DNA of 64,000 bases from Asterella californica (taxonomy: Eukaryota; Streptophyta; Marchantiopsida; Marchantiales; Aytoniaceae). The stretch is taken from positions 29,734,001-29,798,000 of the forward strand of contig JAYKYS010000006.1 in the NCBI GenBank assembly GCA_036924285.1, written 5' to 3'. Positions 605 through 61,483 of this stretch are shown piece by piece; positions within the stretch are counted from its first letter, which is position 1, and each line of letters begins with the position of its first letter. A model generated the notes under the pieces. That model searched no databases, had not been told where the DNA came from, and saw nothing but the letters and a program-made list of their open reading frames with translations. Both the position numbers and the translations under genes were made by a program.

Positions 605-1207
605 TCAGGCTTTGCCCGCTTTGCCCGCTCTGAACACTGCGAACTTCGATTTCGTTGAGTAGATGTACTCGATTCCCTGAGATTTTAAAAAGTCTCCGAG
701 TACCTGCCGAACTCCCTCGGGATCGGTGGACTCACATTCGACTTCGTAGGTGGTTCCGAAGTCATATTGCGTTTCATCCAGCTCGATCTTGAGCCCCTCC
801 CAGCTGAACACATTTCGCACGTTCCGAAACCCCCCTAAACAGATAAATTCTTTACAGCCAAACTCAGCCACCACCTTGTTCAGCAAACTGCTATCAGTAG
901 ATGCCAATCTCCACGGCTCTGCAACACAAGCTCGTCCTAGAGAAACGTCAATATCTTCTTCCAATTCCTCTCCCCGGCTAATCCCGTCTACAATCACAGC
1001 ATTCCCCTTGAATGTGACAACGCACTTGCTATCACCATTATAGAACCGCAACCTCAAAACAGCTCGCTTCGAACTAAGCTGTTTGTCGGCACCATCGAAG
1101 AAAACATTTTCTTGGATGTGAGTGACCTCGTGAAAGGCCTTCAGTGACGCCGCGACTTTCTCATGAGCTTCAGGACCTGGTAGCTTCAGCTTCACTTCTA
1201 CCTCCAT
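605..1207 (-). CDS. TTM3: Triphosphate tunnel metalloenzyme (TTM3-like, CYTH domain)
   Basis: A 200-aa CYTH-superfamily protein. The N-terminus MEVEVKLKL carries the diagnostic ExExK motif (E2, E4, K6), followed by alternating basic and acidic beta strands (for example VLRLRFYN, CVVTFKG, LKIELDETQYDFGTTYEVE) that build the eight-stranded tunnel. Plant TTM3 enzymes hydrolyse tripolyphosphate with a divalent metal; the exact substrate here is inferred from the family. The ATG at 1207 is chosen because the ExExK motif must sit at the extreme N-terminus; the frame is open further upstream but offers only a GTG. The length is close to Arabidopsis TTM3 (about 210 aa). It lies 109 nt downstream of the CDC26 stop on the same strand, and that gap contains no AUG. 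This matches the CDC26-TTM3 bicistronic transcript known in plants. There is no intron in the coding region. Confidence 0.9.
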   Translation of the reverse strand: MEVEVKLKLPGPEAHEKVAASLKAFHEVTHIQENVFFDGADKQLSSKRAVLRLRFYNGDSKCVVTFKGNAVIVDGISRGEELEEDIDVSLGRACVAEPWRLASTDSSLLNKVVAEFGCKEFICLGGFRNVRNVFSWEGLKIELDETQYDFGTTYEVECESTDPEGVRQVLGDFLKSQGIEYIYSTKSKFAVFRAGKAGKA

Positions 1208-1316
1208 AGCGGAAAAGAAAGTAAGGACCAAGGCGAATTGCAATCCAAGTGAAGTTAAATCCGACCAATCCAATCTAAGAAACACACGAAGGAAGTGCTG
1301 GACCCACTCGCCTCTA
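1208..1316 (-). promoter_or_regulatory. CDC26-TTM3 intercistronic spacer
   Basis: These 109 nt separate the CDC26 stop from the TTM3 start on the minus strand. I find no ATG in any frame of the minus strand here, so a ribosome that resumes scanning after CDC26 would meet the TTM3 AUG first. No TATA box or strong splice pair is visible. This supports translation from one mRNA by reinitiation or leaky scanning rather than a separate TTM3 promoter, although sequence alone cannot exclude the latter. Confidence 0.6.
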
Positions 1317-1529
1317 CTACTTATTGAAGCCTATGCGTTGGGCAACGGAAAGTTTAGGGCGAGTTTCGGTGACTTGAGGGGTCGCTGAGCCACCCGCAGA
1401 ACCGGCAGACGAGGAAGACGCAGCAGCAGCAGCTTGCGATGATGCAGCAGCGCGACGTCGTGCTTGCTCTAAATCCTCTTTGTCATCTGCCTCCTTAAAT
1501 TCCAACCTCGTCGGTTTGCGCTTCAGCAT
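1317..1529 (-). CDS. CDC26: Anaphase-promoting complex subunit CDC26
   Basis: A 70-aa protein whose N-terminus MLKRKPTRLEFK closely matches the conserved CDC26 signature (animal CDC26 begins MLRRKPTRLELK). In other species this N-terminal segment threads into the TPR superhelix of APC6/CDC16 and stabilises it. A charged helix follows (ADDKEDLEQARRRAAASS), then a low-complexity Ala/Ser linker and a short C-terminal tail ending in SVAQRIGFNK. It is a small APC/C subunit acting in ubiquitin-dependent cell-cycle control. The ATG at 1529 gives the canonical N-terminus. The upstream neighbour, divergent and 214 bp away, is CDC16, its direct binding partner; the downstream neighbour is TTM3 on the same strand. 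Two consecutive TAG codons end the frame. Confidence 0.92.
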   Translation of the reverse strand: MLKRKPTRLEFKEADDKEDLEQARRRAAASSQAAAAASSSSAGSAGGSATPQVTETRPKLSVAQRIGFNK

Positions 1530-1743
1530 CTTCCCTCCCTGCTCGTCAATTCTGCTTCCGCTTGTGAACTTCCTTCCTCTCTACTCACTCCCAGAACACC
1601 TTTAGCCACGAGAGTAGTCCCGTCATGGAATCTTCCAAAGATTCTTTCTGGACGTACGTGATCGATGGGCGCGCTGTATCCGACGGAGGAGGCTCTTTTG
1701 GGTCAGGAAGAGCGGGAAGAGGGGATTGCAAATTAACGAAGTT
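1530..1743. promoter_or_regulatory. Shared divergent promoter of CDC26-TTM3 and CDC16
   Basis: A 214-bp gap between the divergent CDC26 and CDC16 start codons that must hold both promoters and both 5' UTRs. No TATA box is seen. It is pyrimidine-rich toward CDC26 and purine/GC-rich toward CDC16, with a GGGCGCGC stretch near 1669. On the plus strand an ATG at 1625 opens a 69-codon frame that overlaps the CDC16 start region and ends at 1834, so its TGA overlaps the ATG at 1831 as ATGA. If transcription begins upstream of 1625 this would act as an overlapping upstream ORF. Confidence 0.6.
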
Positions 1744-3480
1744 ATGGGATCAGAGGAGCGAACCCTTCCCGAGCGGAAGAGGAAGAGAAACATTGACAAC
1801 GCGGTCGAGGTGGTCGAGGACGTTGTCGCGATGAGGGAAATGGACTTGGAGAAGCTGCGATCGGTGGTGCGCGATTGCCTGGGGAAGCACCTCTACTCGT
1901 CTGCGATTTTTTTTGCAGACAAATTAGCCACAATGGCTGGGAATACGCCCCAAGATTTATATATGCAGGCGCAGGCTCTGTACCTCGGGAAGGAGTATCG
2001 GCGTGGCCTGCACCTGCTGCGAAGATTTCATCTCGTTTCTGCAGACTTGCGGTTCAGGTATCTGGCAGCGAAGTGCCTGGCGGAGGTCAAGGACTGGGAG
2101 GAATGTTTAGTTATGCTAGGAGAAGGGGATGTAGACGAGGACGGGAACGTAGAGATGGCAGAAGAGCAAGGAGTGGATCTTTCTGAAAGTAAAGATATAG
2201 AGGAGAGGGAAATTCATATCTCGTCGGCAATGTGTCTTCTGCGCGGGCGAGCGTTTGAAGCGTTAGAGAACAGGGCACGGGCGCTTTGTTGGTACAAGGC
2301 TGCTCTTAAAGCGGATCCATTTTGTTATGAAGCGTTTGAGCACCTGATTGACAACCATATGTTGACCAACGAACAAGAGTCCAAGCTTCTTTCATCTCTA
2401 AAATTTGATCCGGAAGATCGGTGGCTGTCGCTTCTTTATTCGTGCCGAGCTAATAAGTATGGGCAGGGCACAAAGATCGAAATGAAGATTGCGGAGCTCG
2501 AGCAGGAGCTGGAAGAGCCTCAGAGTGATGACGAAAGTCGGGCAATCTGCTCGCTGAAAGACAACACGGATGTCATGGCCTGTAGAGCAGATTTAGAGTA
2601 CCATAGGGGTGACTTTCAGAAGTGTTATGAGAGCACAAAAGCTCTATTGGAGAAAGATCCTTACCATCTAAGATGTATGCCCCTGCACTTGGGTGCGGCA
2701 TTGGAACTCGGCCGCAAGAACGAGCTTTTCCTTAGAGCTCACAGCTTGGTACAGGAGTATCCGACCAAGGCTATTTCTTGGTTTGCAGTTGGATGCTATT
2801 ACTACTGTATAAGGCAGTATGATCACGCACGACGGTACTTCTGTAAGGCCACTGCCATGGAGTATTCCTTCGCACCAGCTTGGCTGGGGTTTGGGAATGC
2901 TTACGCTGCGCAAGACGAAAGTGACCAGGCAATGGCTGCTTATAGAACGGCAGCTCGTCTTTTTGCAGGATGCCACCTCCCGAACCTGTGCATTGGAATG
3001 GAGTATCTCCGTACGAATAATCTCAACCTTGCGGAACAATTTCTTCTCCAAGCAAAAGCAGTTTGTCCTGACGATCCTTTGGTCTTCAATGAGTTGGGGG
3101 TAATGGCGTATCGGAACAAAGACTTCAAAACTGCCGCGGATTGGTTTGATAAAGCACTCACCCTGGCGCCCAAACCCTTGACAGACTCATGGGAACCTAC
3201 CGTTGTCAACTTTGCCCACACTTTGCGCAAACTGAAGATGTATACAAAAGCTATAGCAGAGTACGAAAGGGCTCTTGCACTGTACCCTAGAGGGGCCAGC
3301 ACGTATGCCGCTTTGGGCTTCACTCACCATTTACAGGGTAACAGTTCTGTTGCTATCGACTTCTACCATAAAGCTCTGGGACTGAAGCCAGATGACTCCT
3401 TTACTGCGGAAATGCTCTCAATTGCCCTTGCAGATGAGTGCCTCTTACAGAACTCGTCAGGTAGTTCAACGTTCTTCTAG
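1744..3480 (+). CDS. APC6: Anaphase-promoting complex subunit 6 (CDC16 homologue, TPR protein)
   Basis: A 578-aa TPR-repeat protein and scaffold subunit of the APC/C ubiquitin ligase. Residues 30-60 (MREMDLEKL...HLYSSAIFFADK) match the conserved start of plant APC6/NOMEGA, and TPR helices such as WYKAALKADPFCYEA (about residue 183) and repeated units from about 300 to 560 cover the rest. CDC26 from the neighbouring divergent gene is expected to dock in this superhelix. Two starts are possible: ATG 1744 adds a basic 29-residue extension with a KRKR cluster, while ATG 1831 gives 549 aa, closer to Arabidopsis APC6 (about 543). The coding region has no intron, which is unusual since angiosperm APC6 genes are intron-rich. 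Full length suggests a functional gene; origin by retroposition or intron loss is open. Confidence 0.92.
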   Translation: MGSEERTLPERKRKRNIDNAVEVVEDVVAMREMDLEKLRSVVRDCLGKHLYSSAIFFADKLATMAGNTPQDLYMQAQALYLGKEYRRGLHLLRRFHLVSADLRFRYLAAKCLAEVKDWEECLVMLGEGDVDEDGNVEMAEEQGVDLSESKDIEEREIHISSAMCLLRGRAFEALENRARALCWYKAALKADPFCYEAFEHLIDNHMLTNEQESKLLSSLKFDPEDRWLSLLYSCRANKYGQGTKIEMKIAELEQELEEPQSDDESRAICSLKDNTDVMACRADLEYHRGDFQKCYESTKALLEKDPYHLRCMPLHLGAALELGRKNELFLRAHSLVQEYPTKAISWFAVGCYYYCIRQYDHARRYFCKATAMEYSFAPAWLGFGNAYAAQDESDQAMAAYRTAARLFAGCHLPNLCIGMEYLRTNNLNLAEQFLLQAKAVCPDDPLVFNELGVMAYRNKDFKTAADWFDKALTLAPKPLTDSWEPTVVNFAHTLRKLKMYTKAIAEYERALALYPRGASTYAALGFTHHLQGNSSVAIDFYHKALGLKPDDSFTAEMLSIALADECLLQNSSGSSTFF

Positions 3481-11975: not shown

Positions 11976-11980
11976 AGCTT
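11976..11980. repeat. Target-site duplication AGCTT, left
   Basis: The five bases AGCTT precede the left LTR and the same five follow the right LTR at 18,201-18,205. A 5-bp duplication is typical of Ty3-type integrases and fixes both ends of the element. Confidence 0.9.
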
Positions 11981-12487
11981 TGTAAGATGAGGCTCTAGAG
12001 TGAACTCCAAACTCGAATGCCCGTGGTGGTGCATTCGTAGCCTTTATATAGTGAGAGGAATAGTACATGATAAGCTTCCGACCAATGCTCATCTCTCACG
12101 CGGATCGCTGATGTGGCTTACATGCAGCCTTAGATCTAGAACAACATCTAGAGGTTCAGAATGAGCCACGTAGAAGGCTCGCTGGAAAGTTCTAGAAGCT
12201 TCTTTCTAGAAACTTCCTTCTGGAAGCTTCCCGGCTGGAAAGTTCTAGAAGCTTCTTTCTAGAAACTTCCTTCTGGAAGCTTCCCGGCTGGAAAGTTCTA
12301 GAAGCTTCCTTCTAGAAACTTCCTTCTGGAAGTTTCCCGACGGACTTTTGGCGCACTCGCCTAGTGGTAGAAGTACTATTTGCTGCATGTATTCTTCGGC
12401 CAACTTAGCCGTAACTAATTCTTATACCAAAGACTTCTACCAAACCAATTTCTCCTCTAGTTGATAAGTAGGACTCTACTTATTACA
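11981..12487 (-). repeat. 3' LTR of the Ty3 element
   Basis: 507 bp, beginning TGTAAGATGA and ending ACTTATTACA on the plus strand. It contains three 53-bp tandem units at 12,181-12,339 and a TATATAAAGG box on the minus strand near 12,041-12,052. It is the downstream LTR of the minus-strand element. Confidence 0.95.
12181..12339 (-). repeat. 53-bp heat-shock-element minisatellite, three units (3' LTR)
   Basis: Three tandem 53-bp units. Each unit contains a GAAnnTTCnnGAAnnTTC run and two further TTCnnGAAnnTTC cores (for example TTCTAGAAGCTTC, TTCTAGAAACTTC, TTCTGGAAGCTTC). These are canonical binding arrays for heat-shock transcription factors. The last unit differs slightly from the others, at the same bases as the last unit of the other LTR. 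Confidence 0.9.
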
Positions 12488-12503
12488 AACCTCCCCCCTT
12501 TTA
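12488..12503 (-). promoter_or_regulatory. Polypurine tract
   Basis: On the minus strand AAAAGGGGGGAGG lies just before the 3' LTR, the expected primer for plus-strand DNA synthesis. It overlaps or immediately follows the pol stop codon at 12,501-12,503. Confidence 0.85.
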
Positions 12504-15500
12504 AGAAGCAACGTCCTCGTTGCTCAACTGCTGTTCGAAAGCTTGCACTATGAGTGGGGCGTGTGCAAGATTGGTTGCAGGTTCCCATGTTGCTTCATGT
12601 AATGGATAACCTTTCCATTTGACCAAATAATCTACCCGTTGATGACGAGTCCCACGAACACGTTTCTTTAAGATGCATTCCACTTCAAACTCTTCCTCGC
12701 CATCGATAATTTGAGGCAGTGGTCGTGACTCTTGCGAATTGCCAAATTGAGGAGGTCGTGGTGTATATCGTCGTAATAAAGACACATGAAAAACCGGATG
12801 AATCTTCATGTGGGGTGGAAGTTCGAGTTGATATGCCACTGCTCCAATTCTCCGGACAACAGAGAAAGGCCCGATGAAGCGAGGGTTGAATTTACGACTG
12901 CCGATCAGAGTAAGGTTGGTTGTGGATAACCAAACTTGATCACCAATCGTGAACTCTTCATGCCGACGATGTCCATCGGCATATTGCTTTTGTCGGTTCT
13001 GAGCAACTTGTAGTTTCACCTTAGCTTTTTCCACTCCTTGTTGAATCCGTGCAACGAATTCATTAACAGCATCCACTTTGGTGTTGACTGACGACGTCGT
13101 GCTGAATCGTGTCAAACTTGCTGGTGTGAGAGGATGTTCGCCGTACATGAGATAAAAAGGTGTTTCACGAGTAGATGCATTGAGGGAGTTGTTGTAGGCA
13201 AATTCTACCAAAGGGAGTAAAGTGTCCCACTTCGCTTGCTCCTCCAGAGTAAAGGCTCGTAGCATGTCTTCAATGGTGCGATTGGCTCTTTCGGTTTGTC
13301 CATCGGTCTGTGGGTGATAAGCCGTAGACATGGCAAGTTTGGTCTTGAACAGACCAAATAGGGTTCTCCAAAACATGCTCGTAAACTGAGGACCTCTATC
13401 TGTTATAAGCACCCGCGATAGACCGTGCTGAGCAAAAATGGTGTTCAAATATATCTGAGCAAGTTGCGGTGCTGAGACGTCTTTCGTGGTCGGTCGAAGA
13501 TGGATCATCTTGCTGAGCTTATCGACGAAGACGACGATGGAGTCAAAACCTGAGCTCGTCATGGGAAGTTCACACACTAAGTCCATACTAACATGTTCCC
13601 AACGTTTGGAAGGGATCGGGAGGGGTTGAAGGAGACCGGAGGGTGCTTGATTTGTAGCCTTATTCTGTTGACACATTGCACAACTCCGAGTGTATACTGC
13701 AACATCCTCTGCCATCTTGGGCCAATAGAACACTCGTTGGACTGCTTCCAATGTCTTTTCTGCCCCCATGTGTCCTGCAATGGCTGAATCGTGACATTCA
13801 GTTAGTATGGTGGTACGTAGTTCTGGATCATCTGGGATCCATAACTTCCCTTCATGGAATACCAAACCATGGTTGCGGGTGATGGTTCTTGAAGGTTTTG
13901 CTGCGACAGTCTGTGCATCCGATTTTGTGCCCTCGATCAATTTTGTCCAGAAGTCAGAATTCACCTTGACTTCAGAGACTAGGTTATGCACCATAGGCAT
14001 GCGGGTTAATGCATCAGCAATTTGCTTCTTGCCCTCAACGTACGTGATGGTCATGTTGAATCGTTGCCTCCATTCTGCCCAACGGATTTGTCTCTTTGAG
14101 AGATCCTTCTGCGTCTCCAAATAGACTAAAGGTTTGTGGTCTGTCTCGACCACAAAAGCCTTCTCCCCTAGATAGTGCTTCCAATGCTTAGTAGCGAGAA
14201 CTATCGCCAATTCTTCTCTCTCGGTGGTGTGATAGTTCTGTTCTGCTGGTAACAACTTCCGAGAGAAGTATGCAATTGGATGCCAACCATCCTTCCATTC
14301 TTGCTGCAACACCGCCCCTACTGCCGTGCCTGATGCGTCCGTTGCTAACTTGATAGGTTTTTTTGGGTCGTACCACTTGAGGATCGGAGCATGTAGTAGC
14401 GCGGTTTTCAATGCTTGAAAACCTACTTCTTGCGCTGTTCCCCACATCCATTTCTTGCCTTTGCCTAACAGGGCAGTTAGTGGTTGTGCAAGCTTGGCAA
14501 AATGCTTAACAAATCTACGATAAAATCCTGTCAATCCCAAGAAGCTCTTAAGTTGGGTCTGATCTTCTGGAGCCTTCCATTGTTGGATGACAGCTATTTT
14601 ATCGGCCATTACTTGTATGCCTTCTGCACTCACTCTATGTCCTAAGTAGTCCACCTCCGTCTTGCCAAATTCACATTTTGAAATTTTGGCGTACAGTTTA
14701 TTTTGACGGAGTACTTGGAGAACCTCTCTCAAATGGTGCACATGGTCCTCCATAGTTTTGCTATAGACTAGGATGTCGTCAAGAAATACAACGACTGATC
14801 TGTCTAAGTACGGACGGAATATGTCATTCATCAGGCCCATGAAGGTGGCCGGTGCATTTGTGAGACCAAATGACATTACTAAGTATTCGAAGTGACCATA
14901 CCTTGTTCGAAAGGCAGTCTTTTCCACATCTTCATCAGCGATTCGAATCTGGTTGTACCCGCTCCGTAAGTCTAGCTTCGTGAAGTACTTTGCTCCTTCG
15001 AGTTGGTCGAACAAGTCATCCATCCGAGGTAGTGGATACTTATTCTTCACCGTTTGTTGATTGAGTGCTCGGTAATCGATGCACATCCGTAAGCTGTTAT
15101 CCTTTTTCTTAACAAAAAGGACTGGAGCTCCATATGGTGACACGCTGGGCTGGATGAACCCTTTTTGTAACATCTCCTCGATTTGCGCCTTGCACTCCTC
15201 CAATTCATGTGGCGCTAGTCTGTATGGGGCCTTACAAGGAGGGGTGCTCCCTGGAATCACCTCGATTTTGTGGTCAATCCTTCGTTTTGGTGGTAACCCT
15301 GAAGGAAGATCATCGGGAAAGACATCCCCATATTCTGCTATCACTCCTGTCAAGCTTTCTGGTATCTGCCCGTCGAGTCGTGCACTCGGGACTTCTCTTA
15401 TTAAACCCAAAAAACAGACATCGCTGCTACGTATAGCACTTGTACCTATTACATACAAAGGCAAGTTCTGTCTTCGAGATCTCACTCTATCTCCGAAGAT

Positions 15501-15611
15501 TTTCCACTGTTTGGTTTTCACCAGTTTTCTTCGCCAATCCACTTCGGGATTATACTGCTCCATCCACGGCATACCCAATATGACATCATAACGGGCTAAT
15601 GTGATCACTCG
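12501..15611 (-). CDS. pol: Ty3 pol: reverse transcriptase, RNase H, integrase, chromodomain
   Basis: A frame of about 1,036 codons. In numbering from the [14 protein letters not shown] segment, reverse transcriptase covers about 130-340 ([23 protein letters not shown], active site FLDD at 275-278). RNase H runs from about 415 to 540 (LATDAS, ETDHKPL). Integrase has an HHCC zinc domain (about 607-650) and the catalytic triad D676, D737 and E773, with 35 residues between D737 and E773, then a GPF module ([10 protein letters not shown]). A C-terminal chromodomain lies at about 975-1025 ([20 protein letters not shown]). The frame has no internal stop. It is continuous with protease except for one in-frame UGA at 15,614-15,612 and has no ATG of its own at its 5' end, so it must be expressed as part of a larger polyprotein. 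Confidence 0.93.
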
Positions 15612-15938
15612 TCACTCAATATCTTCACGATATTCACCTAAAGTAAGTTCTATCTTTCGAGGTAGAGATTCAATCTTCTCAGTCTGTCCATTGGGCAGTT
15701 CCACCTCTTCACTCTCATCACTTTCTAACTCCATTCCCAACTTCATAGCAGTCGATCGAGACAAAAAGTTCTCTGTTGCACCAGGATCGATTAGTACTCT
15801 CACCTGGGTCCCTTCCAAGACTCCATCCGTGACAATCAATTGTGCATTGTTTTTTGTCAATCTCCTTCTCCTTCCCTCGCCTTTCTTCTCCCTCCTTGCA
15901 CCAGTAAGGCCGCGAGGTGCATTTACTGGTGTTCTTCG
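15612..15938 (-). CDS. Ty3 protease segment, reached by -1 frameshift from gag
   Basis: 108 codons plus a UGA stop in the frame entered after slippage on GGGAAAC. The active-site region is VLIDPGATENFLS, the plant-type variant of the retropepsin D-S/T-G loop, preceded by an Arg-rich linker. The frame is closed upstream by a TGA just before the overlap with gag (about 12 codons of overlap), so it cannot be translated independently of gag. It ends at an in-frame UGA followed by CGA GTG ATC, directly continuing into the reverse transcriptase frame. The UGA is either a point mutation of a sense codon such as TGG or CGA, or a readthrough stop. Confidence 0.8.
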   Translation of the reverse strand, partial: RRTPVNAPRGLTGARREKKGEGRRRRLTKNNAQLIVTDGVLEGTQVRVLIDPGATENFLSRSTAMKLGMELESDESEEVELPNGQTEKIESLPRKIELTLGEYREDIE

Positions 15939-15944
15939 TTTCCC
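15899..15944 (-). promoter_or_regulatory. Programmed -1 ribosomal frameshift signal
   Basis: On the minus strand the slippery heptamer G GGA AAC (15,944-15,938) is in the correct gag phase (CTG GGA AAC). A six-base spacer GAAGAA follows. Then comes a perfect 9-bp stem, CACCAGTAA at 15,931-15,923 pairing with TTACTGGTG at 15,907-15,899, with a 15-nt loop. The gag stop TAA is inside the stem. Loop bases CCTC could pair with GAGG just downstream to form a pseudoknot. Slip sequence, spacer and hairpin all match known retroviral -1 frameshift sites, and protease lies exactly in the -1 frame. Confidence 0.85.
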
Positions 15945-17053
15945 AGTCTTGTCTCGATTTCTTCATCTCCTTCCGTCTCATTCAGATGATTCAGAGGTCG
16001 ACGATATGAAGATCTTGGATCTCTAGGAAAACGACTTCGGCAATTTGCAGCTATGTGGCCGAATCGCCCACAGCTGTAACATCGACGTTGCTCGAGTTGA
16101 GGTGTAGCATTCCTGACACCTTCTCCTCTAGGAGCTCCTTGACGTCTTTCTTCTGGCCGTCCTCGACGATCTCCACCTTCAAATTGTCGTGGCTGATAGC
16201 GGATGTTGCCTAGCTCCATGGGTGTCGGACCGTTTGCATAGGGGATTTCGGATCTATTCTGATGATTTGGTGGAATCATCACTTCTCCTCCTAATGCTCC
16301 AGCAATTCTCTGAGTGCAAGCGATGGCCTCAAAAACCGTGAGTGGGTTTTGCACCATTACTTCTTGTCGAATTCTTTCCTTCAACCCCCTCTTGAAATTA
16401 TCAAGAGCCTCCGCCGGACTCATATCAGTGATTGCAACTTGCAAGTCGAGGAAGGCTTCTACATACTCTTGAAGGCTTCCCTTCTGTTTCAATCCCCACA
16501 TCCTCGTTCGAGCCATTTGCACCGAGTCCACAGACTGGAAATTCTTCAACAATCCTTCTTGCATTGCAGTCCATGTGACTGTCCTCCCTTCCGCCAACAC
16601 CGATCTCTCCCATGCATCATACCACGTGAGAGCTTTATCAGTCAAGTAGCCACACGCAAACACTCCCGCTACGTGGTCCGTGATTTGCGTACTGAAAAGT
16701 CGCAAATATCGATTCATCCGAGAAATCCAATTCTCGACTACTCCCATAAGTCGTTGACCTTTGTACGGTTCAATGTTACATGTCTTCTTCATCCGTAGTA
16801 GCAGGGCACCTTCCTCATCGACTGGAGCTCTAACGATTTGTGCCACGGGTTCTCTTGGTGCAGCTTGCTCTCCCACCACTGGTACTCCTTGAGACGATCC
16901 TCCTCTTGCAACGTCTGTCATACTCTGACCCTCGAGGTTCAGCATTTTGTTTTGTAATGCTTCAACCGTCATCTTCATCTCTCGAAATTCGGTCAGCATG
17001 CCTTGCATCAGTTCCTGCATCACCAACTCTGGATTTGGAGGTTGTTGCTCCAT
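15923..17053 (-). CDS. gag: Ty3 gag protein
   Basis: 376 aa from ATG 17,053. An N-terminal coiled coil (about 10-45) precedes the retrotransposon gag core at about 85-255, recognisable from the segments YLRLFSTQITDHVAGVFACG, LTDKALTWYDAWE and LKNFQSVDSVQMARTRMWGL. A single CCHC zinc knuckle CYSCGRFGHIAANC uses C325, C328, H333 and C338. It is the structural protein of the virus-like particle. It ends at TAA 15,923-15,925, within the hairpin of the frameshift signal; residues L370-G371-N372 are encoded at the slip site. The ORF is preceded by two small leader ORFs. Confidence 0.93.
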   Translation of the reverse strand: MEQQPPNPELVMQELMQGMLTEFREMKMTVEALQNKMLNLEGQSMTDVARGGSSQGVPVVGEQAAPREPVAQIVRAPVDEEGALLLRMKKTCNIEPYKGQRLMGVVENWISRMNRYLRLFSTQITDHVAGVFACGYLTDKALTWYDAWERSVLAEGRTVTWTAMQEGLLKNFQSVDSVQMARTRMWGLKQKGSLQEYVEAFLDLQVAITDMSPAEALDNFKRGLKERIRQEVMVQNPLTVFEAIACTQRIAGALGGEVMIPPNHQNRSEIPYANGPTPMELGNIRYQPRQFEGGDRRGRPEERRQGAPRGEGVRNATPQLEQRRCYSCGRFGHIAANCRSRFPRDPRSSYRRPLNHLNETEGDEEIETRLGNEEHQ

Positions 17054-17098
17054 GATCGCTCTCTCTTTCTCTTACGACACGTAAGTTTCAAGCTTCTC

Positions 17099-17302
17099 CT
17101 AGTACAGAGTTATGACGGCCACTCGGAAACGTTCGTATACTACAGGTACTACAAAAGGGACAGGAGAATCAATTATCTCGCGGTAGAAATCCTCACCAAA
17201 ATTTCTAATCACAAACTCTCTATGTAACGATTTCGGTCTACAGACATAGCGGATCTCCACCCACGTGTTGAAGGGAACAGGAGCGGGTAGGTTTAGATCC
17301 AT
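17099..17302 (-). CDS. Leader small ORF B (67 aa), paralogue of ORF A
   Basis: Begins with ATG 17,302 (MDLNLPAPVPF) and ends 45 nt before the gag ATG. It aligns along its whole length with ORF A: PAPxxPF near the start, then the block FGEDF, a polar six-residue segment, and SPVP...PVV near the end. Conservation at protein level with clear DNA divergence suggests an old tandem duplication kept under coding constraint. I recognise no family. It could be an accessory protein or only a translational control element upstream of gag. Confidence 0.6.
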   Translation of the reverse strand: MDLNLPAPVPFNTWVEIRYVCRPKSLHREFVIRNFGEDFYREIIDSPVPFVVPVVYERFRVAVITLY

Positions 17303-17307
17303 GCTCA

Positions 17308-17523
17308 CTAAATCAAGATGTAGACGGTCAAATCCCAACTAGCTGCATATGTCACTACTGGAAGAATCACCGGGACTGGCGAATTCATCACTTGACCCAT
17401 GAAATCCTCACCGAAATGATAAACAAGATACACTCGAAAATGCTCTCGACGCATATACATAAGCTTGATATGAAAAGGATTCAAGAATGGTAATTCTGGA
17501 GCTGGAAATCTACCCCCATCCAT
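17308..17523 (-). CDS. Leader small ORF A (71 aa), paralogue of ORF B
   Basis: Begins with ATG 17,523 (MDGGRFPAPELPF) about 100 nt after the primer site and ends five bases before the ORF B ATG. Shared features with ORF B are the MD start, PAP and PF near the N-terminus, FGEDF in the middle and SPVPVILPVV near the end. On the expected mRNA it is the first substantial ORF. A minimal ATG-TGA pair overlaps its start as ATGTGATG, which could modulate initiation. There is no signal peptide or known motif; function unknown. Confidence 0.6.
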   Translation of the reverse strand: MDGGRFPAPELPFLNPFHIKLMYMRREHFRVYLVYHFGEDFMGQVMNSPVPVILPVVTYAASWDLTVYILI

Positions 17524-17627
17524 CACATAGCTCTCTTGATCCTTTCAACGCACTCAGAGTTCCAATTGCTAGGTATCCCGATCAAAGGTCCTTCTAAGAG
17601 GGGTAATCCGCTCTCTTAGAGTTTCCT

Positions 17628-17639
17628 GCTCTGATACCA
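17628..17639 (-). promoter_or_regulatory. Primer binding site for initiator tRNA-Met
   Basis: On the minus strand TGGTATCAGAGC, one base after the end of the 5' LTR, is the standard complement of the 3' end of plant initiator tRNA-Met. It confirms element orientation. Confidence 0.95.
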
Positions 17640-17640
17640 T

Positions 17641-18200
17641 TGTAAGATGAGGCTCTAGAGTGAACTCCAAACTCGAATGCCCGTGGTGGTGCATTCGTAG
17701 CCTTTATATAGTGAGAGGAATAGTACATGATAAGCTTCCGACCAATGCTCATCTCTCACGCGGATCGCTGATGTGGCTTACATGCAGCCTTAGATCTAGA
17801 ACAACATCTAGAGGTTCAGAATGAGCCACGTAGAAGGCTCGCTGGAAAGTTCTAGAAGCTTCTTTCTAGAAACTTCCTTCTGGAAGCTTCCCGGCTGGAA
17901 AGTTCTAGAAGCTTCTTTCTAGAAGCTTCCTTCTGGAAGCTTCCCGGCTGGAAAGTTCTAGAAGCTTCTTTCTAGAAACTTCCTTCTGGAAGCTTCCCGG
18001 CTGGAAAGTTCTAGAAGCTTCCTTCTAGAAACTTCCTTCTGGAAGTTTCCCGACGGACTTTTGGCGCACTCGCCTAGTGGTAGAAGTACTATTTGCTGCA
18101 TGTATTCTTCGGCCAACTTAGCCGTAACTAATTCTTATACCAAAGACTTCTACCAAACCAATTTCTCCTCTAGTTGATAAGTAGGACTCTACTTATTACA
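17641..18200 (-). repeat. 5' LTR of the Ty3 element (promoter copy)
   Basis: 560 bp, same ends as the 3' LTR but with four instead of three 53-bp units, which accounts exactly for the 53-bp length difference. On the minus strand the order is: heat-shock-element array (18,052-17,841), about 130 bp of other sequence, then TATATAAAGG (about 17,712-17,701). Transcription should begin about 30 bp further on, leaving only a short R/U5. Confidence 0.95.
17841..18052 (-). promoter_or_regulatory. Heat-shock-element array, four 53-bp units (5' LTR)
   Basis: Four tandem 53-bp units with roughly ten GAA/TTC modules each, spaced as alternating nGAAn pentamers (for example GAAAGTTCTAGAAGCTTC). The second unit differs by one base (TTCTAGAAGC versus TTCTAGAAAC). 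The array sits upstream of the TATA box in the direction of element transcription, as in a heat-inducible promoter. Heat control is inferred from the motif. Confidence 0.85.
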
Positions 18201-18205
18201 AGCTT
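18201..18205. repeat. Target-site duplication AGCTT, right
   Basis: Direct copy of 11,976-11,980; the pre-insertion site would have read TGATCAGCTT followed by GCTCTTATGG. Confidence 0.9.
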
Positions 18206-19012: not shown

Positions 19013-19059
19013 TGAAAACTTTAAGGTATTTTTTTCTCTTGTCTTTCTATATACTTTTG

Positions 19060-19720
19060 GGGATCGAGGACTCCGTCCTCCTCTTTGGTCCATATAAATT
19101 ATACCAAAAACTGATAATGGGATCAACAATATTTCTCAGTTCTGATATCCGTTCTAAGAGTTCTTGGTATCATTGGCAAGCTCTCACTGAGAGCTTTCTA
19201 ATGATGCATTACTCACCTCTAGATCTTATATGGAGCTCTGTCCACAACCCACAACGTTGCTAGAACTCCAACACTTTGCGTTTTTCTGAAAACTATGGTC
19301 TACCAACATACTGAGACCTTGTGATTTGGACCCGCGTCTGATCAACGTCCGTCTGTGTTAACCACATCTCGATCCGCTCGGACTCATGGTTCGGACTTAC
19401 ATCTCAGACTTATGTTTTGATCCGTTTCCAAGCTTGTCCCCTTATGGTAACATTTGTCTGGGGTCCACTTGAGATAGATCTCTATGTCATAATCGAATGT
19501 TTCAACTTTGGTTCAGAGAACCACATAGAGTTCATTTGTTCTCGATTTCTTGATCAAGCCGTCAAGTCTTACTCACAGTGTTCACAACCTAGCGCAAGTC
19601 CGCTAAGGTTTTGTTGTTCGCGTCTGCGTATGATCTTGAGACAGAGGGTCACGACATGCACTCCCACTTTGGAGGTTGATGCCCTCATCACCAATGACTC
19701 TTAAGTTATCGTCAAGTTCA
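19060..19720 (-). repeat. Dispersed repeat, inverted relative of 34,960-35,340
   Basis: The plus strand contains GGGGATCGAGGACTCCGTCC and CTCCTCTTTGGTCC, the complement of GGACCAAAGAGGAGGACGG near 35,310. ACTCCAACACTTTGCG matches the complement of GCTAAGTGTTGGAGCTCC near 35,130. GGTTCGGACTTACATCTCAGAC matches the complement of the region near 34,990. It is probably part of the same old retroelement family as repeat R1. Confidence 0.6.
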
Positions 19721-25415: not shown

Positions 25416-25579
25416 GTAAAGTTTGAGGCTTCAACGTTAACTATGAGCATGAGAGATCCAGTTCTTAGAAAAGAATATGCGAAATCTAGAACAAACGAGC
25501 CGTTTAATTTGCTACGACAGGTTATAACTGTTAAAACTACTCTATAAGCAGAAGGGCTTACAAGTGGTCCTTTCAACAG
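25416..25579 (+). other. Intron of the RING-finger gene
   Basis: 164 bp with donor GTAAAG and acceptor TTTCAACAG, both phase 0. Reading through would hit a stop at 25,547, while removing it joins two continuous coiled-coil segments. Confidence 0.8.
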
Positions 25580-26944
25580 GCAGTGTATGAAAGATTGCCG
25601 CATCAGGAGATGCTACTCAAAGCTGCAGCAGAGGAGCTGCAAACATTAAGGGGACAGAAAGAAACTCTTCAAGCCGCAATTGAAGAGCTTTCAAATTCTC
25701 AAGATCTGAAAGTGAAGCACGAAGCCGTAACTGCACACACTGCTGCATTGCAGAAAAAGAGAGCAAGTTTGGAACCCACAGTAACAGAAGAGCTTCCTGC
25801 ATTAGAGAAAGACTTTTCTGAAACAGTGGTAGTAGAAGAGATGGAAGAATTGCGCAAACAGAAGGATATGTCCAGACCTGAAAGGGAGGAGCTTGAATCG
25901 TTACGACGGGAGATAGCTATAACTGAAGCTGGAGATAGAGAATTTGTCAACATCCACGGTCGCGAGAATGCAAGGACTGTCAAGGAACAAAGCTTAATGG
26001 CAAAGGTGGAACGCTTGATTCAGAAACAAGCAAAGTTGATGAGAACTATCGCTTACTTGGAGGAAAAGAGGACGGAAGACAAGCAAGAGCGCGATCGATA
26101 TTGCGTAGAGCTAGAAGCTGCGAAGACGAAGATATATCAAACTTCAGCCAATCTAAACGCTGCTGAGCAAAAACTGGTTTCTGTCATCAAAGAAAACGAA
26201 ATTTTGCATGAAGAGAAAATTCATATGCTCGGTGAGAAACAAGCTCTGCAGGCAGAGAAGGATCGTTTGTTAGAGGACAAGCAAAGTCTGGAACGGAGGT
26301 TGCGTCGCTCGAATGAACACGTAATAGATCTGCAGGGAGGGAAGAATCCTCTGTTCAAGGAGAAGCAAGGTCTGAAACGCAGATTGCGTCATACGGATGA
26401 ACAGATCACAATTCTGCAGGAAGAGAAGAATCGTTTGCTCAAGGAGAAGCAAAATTTGGACCGGAGACTACGTCACGCTAACGAACATATTGCAGATCTG
26501 CAGTTCGATATTGAACGTGTCCAGAAGGCGAAGACAAGAGTGGAGCTAGACGCAACCGTTCTAAGCAGAGACCTCTTTGCCCGGATTGAATCTCTTAAGG
26601 CAGAACTGAGACTGAAACAAGAGGAAGACGACGCTGCCGGAGCGAACGACCACCAAATGTTTGGTGATCCTGAAACTCGTGAGGAGTTTAACCACGCTTA
26701 CTTGGACGACGACGGGAAATTGTGGGACGGGGCGCCTACAGATACAAAGCAGCTTGGTGATGCTGCTGCCGCCAATGCCCTTTGTAACATTTGCCACGAG
26801 AACACCAGAGATACTGTGATTCTACCGTGCACCCACATGCAGAGCTGCGCCCAATGCGTGAAGGAGTTAATACAGAGAGACAAATCTTGCCCCACCTGTG
26901 ACACAGCGATCTCGGGATTCGTTTCCTGTAACCAAGCCGCTTGA
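25580..26944 (+). CDS. Coiled-coil RING-finger protein, exon 2 (C3HC4, putative E3 ligase)
   Basis: 454 codons, residues 345-798. Almost all is predicted coiled coil. At 571-654 there are three tandem 28-residue repeats, each four heptads long, with cores KQSLERRLRRSNEH, KQGLKRRLRHTDEQ and KQNLDRRLRHANEH. An acidic linker (about 690-735) leads to a C-terminal C3HC4 RING with ligands C746, C749, C761, H763, C767, C770, C781 and C784, the small C-terminal class seen in many plant E3 ubiquitin ligases. The product is probably a self-associating ubiquitin ligase; substrate unknown. A truncated copy of the repeat region and of the 3' end lies at 40,724-41,000. Confidence 0.82.
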   Translation, partial: AVYERLPHQEMLLKAAAEELQTLRGQKETLQAAIEELSNSQDLKVKHEAVTAHTAALQKKRASLEPTVTEELPALEKDFSETVVVEEMEELRKQKDMSRPEREELESLRREIAITEAGDREFVNIHGRENARTVKEQSLMAKVERLIQKQAKLMRTIAYLEEKRTEDKQERDRYCVELEAAKTKIYQTSANLNAAEQKLVSVIKENEILHEEKIHMLGEKQALQAEKDRLLEDKQSLERRLRRSNEHVIDLQGGKNPLFKEKQGLKRRLRHTDEQITILQEEKNRLLKEKQNLDRRLRHANEHIADLQFDIERVQKAKTRVELDATVLSRDLFARIESLKAELRLKQEEDDAAGANDHQMFGDPETREEFNHAYLDDDGKLWDGAPTDTKQLGDAAAANALCNICHENTRDTVILPCTHMQSCAQCVKELIQRDKSCPTCDTAISGFVSCNQAA

Positions 26945-34849: not shown

Positions 34850-35840
34850 TCAGAGAGGCTAACTCCTAACAGAGAGGTGAATTATTTACTATGTGAAATG
34901 ACTCACATCACGACATCATAGTGACTTATTCCAAGAGGACTCTAGACGAACGCTGACCTAAGAGGACAAGTCTAGAAACAGACCGAAACGTAAGTCTGAG
35001 ATGTGGATCCGAGCGCATCGAGACAAGGGTCCAATATAGACAGGTGCTAGTCAGACACTGATCCGCACCACAAGGTCCCAATTTGGTATTGGACCACGGC
35101 TCTTTGATAAAACGCTAAGTGTTGGAGCTCCAGTGACGTTTTGAGATGTGGACGGAGCTCCACATAAGATCTCGAGGTGAGTAAGATATCATTGGAGGCC
35201 TCAGCGAGGATTTTCCAATGAGATCAAGATGTCTTTGAATTGACATCGAAGTTGAGAATTATGACCGATCTCATAATCAAGTTGTGATATAATTCTCAAG
35301 GACCAAAGAGGAGGACGGTCGATCCCCAGAAGTATATATGCGACGTACTCGATGCCTGAATGGACCAAGACGAGTTACTCGATCTCAGAGTTCAACGAGT
35401 AGACTTTGTGGACATGAGATGATGGCTGGACTAGTACCAAGACGATATAGTCCAGACCTGACGACCCAATGGCTGGAGCAAGACCATGAGATGAGATGAC
35501 GGGTTAGATCACCGTATAGGATCTTATACCCAGATAGATATCATGTGCGGTTGGACGGTTAGGAGTGCTGGAGACATCATTTAGGACCCTGGACTTTATA
35601 GGAAGTCCGTCCCAAGTCATGTTATGACTTGCTCATGTGTTAGAACCGACCTAGCCGGGTCTAGGTTGAGACTTAGGGAATGCTGAGCTTGAGAGTTAGA
35701 GAGACGGTACAACTCCGGTCCGGACAAAATGAGATAAAAGTAAGTGGTGCATGGACGCTAACGTGTGATTGTGGTTTGTGAGTTTCGTGGCTTACTGAAT
35801 AAGAGCTTCCGTTGACGCAACAAGACAGTAGATGCACAAA
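34850..35840 (+). repeat. Dispersed repeat R1, copy 2 (longer)
   Basis: The right half (35,340-35,840) is a direct copy of 10,500-11,060; the left half is related in inverted orientation to 19,060-19,720. Together they define an old non-coding element of about 1 kb, probably an LTR or a solo-LTR-like remnant. Confidence 0.7.
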
Positions 35841-54140: not shown

Positions 54141-54146
54141 GATCGC

Positions 54147-54420
54147 GAGGGTTGCTTGTGGTTTTAGTGCTGTGCTTATTTTTCATTTTATAGCGAAGGT
54201 TAGCCTTAGGTCTCTAGGCTCGAGAGGGTTGCTTGTGGTTTTGCTGCTGTGCTTATTTTTCATTTTATAGCAAAGGTTAGCCTTAGGTCTCTAGGCTCGA
54301 GAGGGTTGCTTGTGGTTTTGCTGCTGTGCTTCTTATTTTCGATTTATAGCGAAGGTTAGCTTTAGGTCTCTAGGCTCGAGAGGGTTGCTTGTGGTTTTGC
54401 TGCTGTGCTTCTCTGCTTGT
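54147..54420. repeat. 77-bp tandem repeat, 3.5 copies
   Basis: Units start GAGGGTTGCTTGTGGTTTT at 54,147, 54,224, 54,301 and 54,380, each with TTATAGCGAAGGTTAGCC and TTAGGTCTCTAGGCTCGA. Copies 1 and 2 are nearly identical, so expansion is recent. Confidence 0.9.
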
Positions 54421-58060: not shown

Positions 58061-59940
58061 ATGATGCTAACATAACACGCATCTCTAAGATCTCTTCCAA
58101 ATTTCCAACAATTCTTTTCTCACCGAAACACGAGGTATGGTGAGATATTCACTTCGAGTGCTAGACCGTGATGCTGAATAACACTATGATGTCCGCAAAA
58201 GATTTACATACTGAAACACTCTCAAGTGCTAACAGAGCACCAACTTTTGTTGAGTGTGGAGTTCTTTTCTATTTTGAAATCAAAAAGTGTGATCTTAAAT
58301 GCTCCTCATTAACCATGTACTACTCAACGCATTTAATTCACGGACAAAACTACAACGGGTAATGAGATAACAGCCGTGGCTACTTTTCTCCTTGTACCTC
58401 TTGAGATATCCGCAACCGAAATGATCGTTATCCGGAACTCATGCCCGCGGAGAGCAGAATAATCATCATGATATCGCGTCAGATTTTACGTGAAGGATGT
58501 CTAGGAAAACGCGAGGTTCCTGGCTGTGGAGATGTTGTGTGCTGAACAGAGACAAGAAAGAGACAAACACGCACGAAAACGAACGTTGCTGCAATATATA
58601 TCAACTTCAAATATATGTACACTGCCGGTTCTTTCTTCCTAAGAACAAAAAACTGAGAAACAGACCGGAGCGGTCTGTGATATGCTTCAAACCCCTAAAA
58701 CGAACCTCTGAATCTCAACCCTGACCCAAAACCACCGAAGCGTAGCTCAAAGCAAGAGAAACTTCTCTTTGCTAACAAACAGAGCTGCTCCAGTATCACA
58801 CGATTGAAACCCAAGTCCAAACCACATCCATGTACAAGCTCTTAGCCAAAGCTGGCTACCACAAGCTATATATAACCAACCAGAACTCTAACGAACTCAA
58901 AAGAGCAAAACCCGTAGCGAAGAAATCCAAAAAAGCCTATATGAGAACTTTCTCCTTTCGTCGAATTGACTTCAGATGCCGATAGGCACTCCTCCGCTGA
59001 CTCCGTTAACCCAAGAAACCTTCAGATCCGACTCCCAACAGCCGAGATATCACCGATTTTTTATCGCAGGTGACCGAACCTTCAAAAATTGCTCCCTGCG
59101 GCTTAAAACCGCACACACCGCTCAAACGGATCGATTGATCTGATATCTATCTTCCCTGGCAGGTAGATCTAGCTATCACAAACCCAATGAGACTCCAACC
59201 AAGCCGTTTGGAGTTCCCCTTGCAAAACCACGCAAGGAAATTTGGCCGCAAGTTGCAAAAAACTGACGTAAATGAACTCCTTGCGGCTCAAACTCGCTCA
59301 CCTCACCCAAACCAACAATCCAATCCATGTATTGTCTTCTCCTATGCGTAGAAAAAGATTCACTGGTCGCGTAGGCACCAAGAACGAAGAGCTTGGCACA
59401 CCGATCGCGAAGAACAACCCAATTTTAGGCCGCAGACGATGAAAAATCTGACGCAAGCGCTTCCCTGCGAGTCAATTTCACTCAGAACTCCTAAACCGCC
59501 TGATGAAACTTGGTATCGTCTTCAATTTCCTGTAAAACTCGGTGTTCTAATCCTGATGGATCCAAGGACAGCAAGTTTGGACTCCAGAACGGCCCGAACG
59601 GTCCAACTCTCTTTCACAAGTAATTGAAACTCTCAAATCTGCTTCCTGCGTCTCAATTTCCCTCAAAACACAACCCTCGATCCATCTCTTCAAGAACCTT
59701 ATTAACCCACACGTAGCTTGCACAGATCTGAACCTAACGACGCCTTGTGCGTTTGCATTGGACCTCCAAATCTCTCGAACCGTCCGTTAACAGGTCGCAG
59801 GCGCAAGCTAACCCCTTAAGCAACCCCCTTATGCAGTCTCTGTAAGCACAAGGTTTCTTCAATAATGAGGAAGCTGACCCCTTGCGTCTTTAATATAACG
59901 CCTGGGGTTGCAAATACCCAGTCAGCAAGTAAACTAAGGC
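58061..59940. other. Probable non-coding retroelement remnant
   Basis: No domain found. From 58.9 to 59.8 kb there are repeated phrases of the kind CTCCCTGCGGCT(T)AAA, TCCTTGCGGCTCAAAC, TTCCCTGCGAGTCAATTTC and TTCCTGCGTCTCAATTTCCC at irregular spacing, typical of retrotransposon leader DNA. It leads into the tandem repeats at 59.94 kb. Confidence 0.4.
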
Positions 59941-60415
59941 CTAGCTTGATTTTCTCTTCTTTCGAGTCGCATAACTTCTCCAGTAGGTGTCCAAATGAAG
60001 TAGACAAGATGCCCATGGAAAGTTGACAACGAGCTCTACCCATCTATGTGATGAAAGTGAAGATCCGAAGTTGTGCCAAAAGTCCATAAGCTCAGACCTA
60101 GCTTGTTTTACCCATCTTTCGAGTCTTGTAACTTCTCCACTATGCGTCCAAACGAAGTAGACAAAGTGCCTATGAAAAGCTGACAAGGAGCTCTATCCAC
60201 TGATGCGATAAAAGCGAAGATCCGAAGTGGTGCCAAAAGCTCGTAAGCTGAGGCCTAGCTTGTTTCACTCATCGTTCGAGTCTTATAACTTCTCCACTAG
60301 GCGTCCAACGAAGTAGACGAAGTGCTTATGGAGTGCTGACAAAGAACTTTATCCACTGATGCGATGAAAATGAAGATCCGAAATGATGCCAAAAGCCCGT
60401 AAACTAGGGCCTAGC
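59941..60415. repeat. 158-bp tandem repeat, three copies
   Basis: Each unit begins near CCTAGCTTG, contains TTCGAGTC...ATAACTTCTCCA, CGTCCAA(A)(C/T)GAAGTAGAC, GAAGATCCGAA and ends GCCAAAAG...TAAGCTGAGGC. Copies are about 85% alike. A partial fourth start lies at 60,412. Directly after it (60,470-60,510) GGAGCCGATCCACGACACGACAACGGCC and TTTGACACCCC resemble the primer site and LTR edge of an old retroelement. Confidence 0.85.
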
Positions 60416-61483
60416 TTGTCTTACCCATAAGTGCCTTTGGAGCGACAAAAGTCAAATTTGATTTTCATGTAGGAGCCGATCCACGACACGACAACGGCCA
60501 CTAAATTTGACACCCCTATTGCTTGTTGGCAATGATACGGACTAGTATGTCGGGTCTACCTAAGGGAACTAGCATCGGCTGCTCGTCTGGTTAGTTTTGA
60601 GCTAGACATGTAAACCTCTAGAGGGAATGATTTATGTTGATAAACCATTCTCCCCGAGGCTTTGCCGAGAGAGTGGTTTATCACATCAACTATTACTCTT
60701 TGTGTATTATTAATCAATGTAGGTTGGTGTGTTACAGAGACTAAACTGAGTAGCATATCAGTTTCTGGACCTAAACTGAGCCCAAACTGTGATTTATTAT
60801 TTTCCGACTCTAGAGAGTGGCCTACATGGAAAAGATCAATGGTTTATGTAAAATCGGTCATGGAAATATAAAGGGAAAAGGATCAAAGTGCTTTATGTAA
60901 TACATAAACCTTTCTTTCGATATGGCTTATCATATAAATCACGACTTCAGAGGTTTATGTACCATGCATTCCTTTTGAATGTTAGTCACAGTTTGACGTT
61001 AAAAAATGTTTATTAAATTTTCCCACGTGTTTGAGTGGTATGTAAATCACTGAAACCAAAACATAACTTAAAAGAATGGCAGATCAGTCTTACAAACCGT
61101 ACTAAACGATGGTTTATCTGTTCCCCTAACCAAATTCTAACTTAAGAAGTGGCATATGAATCTCTTGATCTTGAACCGAATCAAAATAATAACATTTCAA
61201 ATTTTTAAACCTAGAACCATGACAAACAGTGGTTTGTTAATTTCCGGACCTAAACAGTGCTTTATAAGTTGTATGAACTTGGACAGTGATGTAGGGAATA
61301 AAATCGATGGTTTATCAGATATAAACCACCAAAATATATAAATAAAAAGAGGTAGAAATGGTAATTTTATGTACCATGGAACACGCATATATTTGTGAAT
61401 GCCAATCAGTCAATCACAGTTTCACGATAATAGTTTAATGTCTATTTTCTATTGTTACATATCTCTGTAAAACATTTTAAATG
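60416..61483. other. AT-rich DNA with AAACCA/TGGTTT hairpins
   Basis: Contains a hairpin around 60,640-60,680 (GATAAACCATTCTC pairing with GAGAGTGGTTTATC) and many TGGTTTATC/AAACCA words to 61.3 kb. No gene. Confidence 0.5.

Follow-up and report, generated by a model that had tools for sequence, protein, structure and literature searches.

A Ty3-type retrotransposon in liverwort DNA carries, in the U3 part of both of its LTRs, an array of tandem 53-bp units composed of heat-shock elements (HSEs), and the two LTRs of this insertion differ by exactly one such unit. Judging from this copy and its relatives in the same genome, we consider it likely that the array serves as an HSF-driven promoter working like that of ONSEN, here placed in a Ty3 element, with the number of sites altered in about half of the insertions.

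Anatomy of the element

Self-comparison of the window (the whole 64-kb stretch of DNA analysed here) revealed 5.2 kb of coding sequence between two repeats of about 0.5 kb on the minus strand (Table 1). The LTR pair, the target site duplication, the primer binding site, the polypurine tract and the order of RT, RNase H, integrase and chromodomain identify this copy as a Ty3-type chromovirus, in agreement with the earlier note, which had assigned the LTR retrotransposon to the Ty3 type and not to copia. The pol domains were located by searching the frame in pieces, and the chromodomain at the C end of the integrase matched PF00385 with an E value of 2.8e-16. The 5' and 3' LTRs are identical at 507/507 common positions, a single 53-bp gap being their sole difference. 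The primer binding site is presumably of the initiator tRNA-Met type. The TATA box of the 5' LTR begins at LTR position 491, 130 bp downstream of the array end. A protease-like segment is visible in the pol frame upstream of the in-frame stop; because of this stop, and because pol and gag lie in different frames, the window copy may not be self-sufficient.

Table 1. Positions of the retrotransposon and its parts in the window
Feature	Position	Strand	Basis or remarks
Full-length Ty3-type chromovirus retrotransposon, 6220 bp	11981..18200	-	LTR pair, matching flanking 5-mers, gag/pol domains
5' LTR, 560 bp, TG...CA	17641..18200	-	self-comparison and alignment
3' LTR, 507 bp, TG...CA; the 5' LTR less one 53-bp unit	11981..12487	-	self-comparison and alignment
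Target site duplication AGCTT	18201..18205	+	
Target site duplication AGCTT	11976..11980	+	
Array of four 53-bp units; 40 GAA/TTC modules in 8 three-module and 4 four-module HSEs	17841..18052	-	5' LTR; Tandem Repeats Finder: 53 bp x 4.0 copies (97% matches)
Array of three 53-bp units; 30 modules in 6 three-module and 3 four-module HSEs	12181..12339	-	3' LTR; Tandem Repeats Finder: 53 bp x 3.0 copies (98% matches)
TATA box TATATAAA of 5' LTR	17703..17710	-	
TATA box TATATAAA of 3' LTR	12043..12050	-	
Primer binding site TGGTATCAGAGC	17628..17639	-	1 base past 5' LTR
Polypurine tract AAAAGGGGGGAGGTT	12488..12502	-	adjoins 3' LTR
gag frame	15923..17071	-	Retrotrans_gag / Ty3_capsid, CCHC knuckle
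pol frame	12501..15611	-	RT, RNase H, H2C2, integrase core, SH3-like, chromodomain, in this order
In-frame stop in pol frame	15612..15614	-	between protease-like segment and RT

The gag frame had 6 matches in all, the best of them in the liverwort Riccia sorocarpa (70% over 65% of the frame), and the RT stretch showed 85% identity to proteins of the same species, the highest value among the best 120 of 7959 matches. Together with those of the APC6-like gene described below, these matches make a liverwort the most likely host. A search of a viral contig collection with gag gave no match, and a 27-bp double-HSE pattern had one match each in 4 contigs of that collection.

The neighbourhood of the element holds several further features. 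An inverted dispersed repeat adjoining it (19048-19486 and 34917-35338) is 71% identical over 442 bp. A CYTH-domain gene (minus strand) and an APC6-like gene (plus strand) lie head to head at 605-3480, both close to intact single frames; the closest relative of the latter (1618-3480) is in Riccia fluitans (88% over 92%), followed by Calypogeia fissa (84%), among the best 120 of 1095 matches. A coiled-coil frame with a C-terminal RING finger occupies 25535-26944 on the plus strand and contains three tandem 84-bp repeats (26245-26503) that keep the frame. Other tandem arrays are found at 59929-60428 (157-bp unit, 3.2 copies) and 54143-54410 (77-bp unit, 3.5 copies).

An array of heat-shock elements in U3

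Each 53-bp unit consists of three 14-bp subrepeats plus 11 bp and contains exactly ten GAA/TTC modules in a 3+3+4 arrangement, which read GAAnnTTCnnGAA, GAAnnTTCnnGAA and GAAnnTTCnnGAAnnTTC on the element's strand. HSEs of at least three nGAAn modules are present in U3 upstream of the TATA box. A minisatellite of 53-bp units with about ten modules each, four units upstream of the TATA box in the promoter LTR and three in the other LTR, had been proposed beforehand, and this description holds. The accompanying claim of some 40 correctly spaced modules stands in part: the spacing is right inside each element, but the modules of the 5' array form 12 separate three- and four-module elements, not one run. 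The two joints within a unit measure 4 bp from module to module, which shifts the register, and the joint between units measures 10 bp and is in register with one pentamer absent. Two of the three joints between elements displace the register by one base, so the 40 modules cannot be read continuously.

All perfect three-module HSEs of the window (28/28) fall inside the two arrays, 16 in one and 12 in the other, against a mean of 1.31 and a maximum of 5 in 200 dinucleotide-preserving shuffles of the window. When a single unit was shuffled 5000 times, no shuffle matched its 4 overlapping three-module HSEs or its 10 modules, and the shuffled unit averaged 4.8 modules. A chance origin of the HSE architecture is excluded by these shuffles.

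Just after the array, each LTR has an ABRE-like TACGTGGC (17825-17832 and 12165-12172, minus strand). The ABRE-like motif YACGTGGC was dropped as a signal in the LTR, since its 2 occurrences in the window, compared with 1.27 expected, are within chance.

The array across the family

Relatives were sought in the same genome, using an assembly of 516.7 Mb in 773 contigs. The array as query gave 585 first-look candidates, the array-free right part of the LTR gave 850, and a piece of a more distant copy gave 853; 40 were scored for each query. For the third query, 16 of the 40 places were already in the sample, 20 were added and 4 were left out. Mates of LTRs were located by position, and the final set comprised 113 LTRs with both flanks, a sample that is not random in that the array query favours long arrays. 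A truncated LTR with an array but without its left flank (L016) was excluded from the 113.

Every one of the 113 LTRs read whole bears the array, and none is array-less. The arrays span 53-332 bp, corresponding to one to about six units and 9-60 modules, with the following lengths in bp (number of LTRs): 53 (8), 78 (2), 105 (1), 106 (20), 120 (2), 131 (3), 145 (6), 146 (1), 159 (53), 160 (3), 173 (1), 201 (2), 212 (10) and 332 (1). Among the LTRs obtained with the array-free query (39/40 read whole), the lengths were 159 (14), 106 (10), 145 (4), 212 (3), 53 (3), 160 (2), 120 (1), 78 (1) and 131 (1). At least one four-module element was kept in 110/113 LTRs and TATATAAA in 112/113. The survey of unit number that the earlier note had suggested thus revealed wide variation, among copies as well as within them, from one LTR to the other.

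In 112/113 LTRs the array also occupies one constant position in U3, ahead of the TATA box. This fixed position is what argues against a role like that of human satellite III, with the array acting as an HSF sink or giving rise to heat-induced non-coding RNA instead of serving as the element's own promoter; hundreds of LTR candidates in the genome (the 850 of the array-free query, 40 of them scored) would suit such a role, which we nevertheless regard as very improbable.

Some places in the sample were unusual in structure. Two solo LTRs have their own target duplication (C11:4715306 and C145:939810). At C627:18491528-18495427, two inverted, closely related LTRs, one of 3' type (with the other of 5' type; L010 and L013), have outer flanks that both read GTCTG once one is turned round, and the locus looks like an element whose 3' LTR end inverted after insertion. 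At C62:1788591-1794758 (L061, L062), one LTR is preceded by a purine tract and followed by a primer site, marking tandem elements that have this LTR in common.

Array length differs between the LTRs of one insertion

We compared array length within 37 LTR pairs that have exact 5-bp target duplications. Four same-strand pairs were left out: two had target duplications one base apart, one had 23 substitutions and was not a true pair, and one lay in a tandem of elements. The arrays differed by at least one subrepeat in 19 pairs and by a single base in 1, and were of equal length in 17; in the pairs drawn from the array-free query sample alone, 11/18 differed. The steps in the 19 differing pairs were 14, 14, 28, 39 (three), 53 (ten), 54, 92 and 106 bp, so that 18/19 are sums or differences of 53 and 14 and the remaining one is 54. 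The longer array was in the 5' LTR in 11 of these pairs and in the 3' LTR in 8. The 348-bp flanks of the pairs, by comparison, contained 119 substitutions and 2 indels in 12,871 aligned bases.

When LTR elements replicate, the 3' U3 of a single RNA is the source of both U3 copies, each of which is made on its own at a late stage. Seven of the 37 pairs had no substitution outside the array, and 4 of these 7 already differed in array length; pairs with differing and with equal arrays had similar substitution counts (p 0.55). If change were slow and followed insertion, young pairs should agree, yet they do not, and differences do not become more frequent as substitutions accumulate, which points to reverse transcription as the step at which unit number probably changes. 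Unequal recombination or gene conversion after insertion, or errors of assembly, could also have produced the differences, and tandem units invite both. We give this explanation a minor but appreciable chance, as it sits poorly with the differing pairs that lack substitutions and with the flat share of differing pairs, a comparison of modest power at 0-12 substitutions per pair; the target duplications are intact in all 37 pairs too, by way of how the pairs were selected.

A tree of 93 LTRs, built from the sequence outside the array, requires 38 or more changes of array length, close to the mean of 42.4 for shuffled lengths, and five sets of identical flanks contain more than one array length. 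This near-absent clustering shows that array length is labile, with no sign of selection for a best number.

Variation in modules and spacers

Unit variants were compiled from 247 units in 91 arrays of 62 insertions, leaving out the 22/113 arrays whose lengths are not multiples of 53. All ten modules were intact in 223/247 units. Variants common to at least two insertions occurred at 9/30 module sites and at 19/23 spacer sites (Fisher 0.0002), and when the module mask was slid along the unit, 0/52 shifts gave a count as low (observed 9, shifts 11-23). G/C-rich spacers mutate more, and allowing for base make-up weakens the conservation of the core: shared variants were found at 7/10 module and 14/14 spacer sites among G/C sites only (0.059) and at 2/20 and 5/9 among A/T sites only (0.016), and a context-adjusted binomial on an earlier set of copies gave 0.046.

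The core:spacer ratio of shared variants (9:21) was not significantly different from that of single-insertion variants (7:11) in these units (one-sided 0.37). A value of 0.048 had come from a smaller sample that included an LTR with misaligned flanks (L007); without L007 and with copies added, the contrast gave 0.21 and then 0.37, and the claim of selection on this ground was dropped. The lower variation of modules than of spacers is consistent with selection on the modules but does not prove it.

The lack of a significant contrast, together with the very labile and nearly unclustered repeat number, is what a neutral minisatellite would produce if its unit had chanced on HSE-like motifs and had multiplied through slippage and hitch-hiking without acting as a promoter. 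This origin appears improbable to us, however, given that a single unit already has ten modules, a number reached in 0/5000 shuffles, that the modules are intact in so many units, and that 0/113 LTRs are array-less, though length shifts as frequent as these would often have lost the array.

A heat-responsive promoter as the favoured reading

We therefore return to the HSF-driven promoter as the preferred reading. On heat, trimers of a class A HSF of the host would bind the three- and four-module elements upstream of the TATA box and turn on the element's RNA, tying its copying to the heat response of the host as in ONSEN. Units would be gained and lost in 53-bp and 14-bp steps, most likely through slippage or template switching of reverse transcriptase among the units during U3 synthesis, so that in about half of the insertions the two ends would carry unlike promoters. 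Work on ONSEN ranks 4P elements as the most efficient class and 3P elements as moderately efficient, and the combination of one 4P with one gap element accompanies an ONSEN induction of 884-976-fold (passages of PMC5059998); in vitro, the liverwort HSF MpHSFB1 binds to an HSE (part of PMC12445474).

The array may bind HSF in a family that is not mainly heat-induced, being either silenced or run by an HSF programme unrelated to heat (development, drought or oxidative stress, for instance). HSFs act outside heat, which favours such a programme, as does the one ABRE-like YACGTGGC per LTR, though at a count within chance. The 5' LTR has 18 CG sites, unlike the LTR of ONSEN, and 18 and 19 CHG sites on the two strands, which could be methylated, so the LTR may be silenced. 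Against this reading stand the 7/37 pairs without substitution in their flanks, which indicate recent movement and, at some time, transcription in the germ line. On balance we hold a mainly non-heat or silent family to be rather unlikely, and continue to favour the heat-driven promoter.

Unit number may also affect the strength of the heat response, the tuning that the earlier note proposed. A bolder version, which we advance tentatively and think possible though doubtful, is that reverse transcription re-deals the site number, from 9 to 60 modules, in about half of the insertions, making the array a self-varying heat dose meter; the family would then form a standing range of heat thresholds, within which a heat wave would favour the best-tuned copies and raise their number. 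With 113 LTRs and near-identical flanks, the family offers a natural series for relating site number to heat threshold, and lets one ask whether the promoter strength of mobile elements evolves by repeat slippage at reverse transcription. If heat induction holds, a Ty3 chromovirus in an early-branching lineage of land plants reached heat-shock coupling through stacked sites, not through one strong site.

Comparison with known systems

Ty3 elements linked to heat, and LTRs with putative HSEs, are already on record in the literature cited here. TCN3 and TCN12 of Cryptococcus are LTR elements that heat mobilises and whose LTRs contain putative HSEs (passages of PMC12810828); they have one or two such sites and a fungal host. 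Ty3/Gypsy elements of Cryptomeria are induced at 45 C (table in the review PMC9780303), and so resemble the liverwort element in type and in its proposed heat induction; the passages of the review covered here do not mention an HSE array. The proposal of an independent Ty3 counterpart to ONSEN accordingly stands as to the Ty3 type, but to call it the first would be too strong, with the HSEs of TCN3/TCN12 and the heat-induced Ty3 elements of Cryptomeria in print. Among the sections of open-licence literature covered, we found neither an LTR built on an HSE repeat array nor an HSE-bearing Ty3 element of liverworts. In Caenorhabditis, Helitrons carry HSEs that overlap, look tandem and are bound by HSF-1 (passages of PMC6927752); these elements differ in being DNA transposons with no LTR promoter.

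Tnt1 of tobacco resembles the liverwort element in having repeated stress-responsive U3 boxes (BII) of varying number, and in one case template switching in the course of transposition added a further BII repeat (parts of PMC2923131). Tnt1 is a defence-induced copia element, whereas ours is Ty3, and in the case reported there both LTRs of the new copy are identical, whereas the liverwort LTR pairs often differ.

ONSEN (ATCOPIA78) of Arabidopsis also has sites of heat-responsive-element type in its LTR promoter; its nTTCnnGAAn elements are bound by HSFA2 and need HSFA1 (passages of PMC3907296), and its heat-responsive element was formed by duplication of a shorter motif (passages of PMC5059998). 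ONSEN belongs to Ty1/copia, whereas the liverwort element is a Ty3 element with a chromodomain and with integrase after RT, and the ONSEN promoter is without CG and CHG sites. As the earlier note had maintained, the sites of ONSEN are far fewer: the same passages of PMC5059998 give each LTR a single 4P and a single gap element, compared with 12 HSEs in an array of labile length in the liverwort element.
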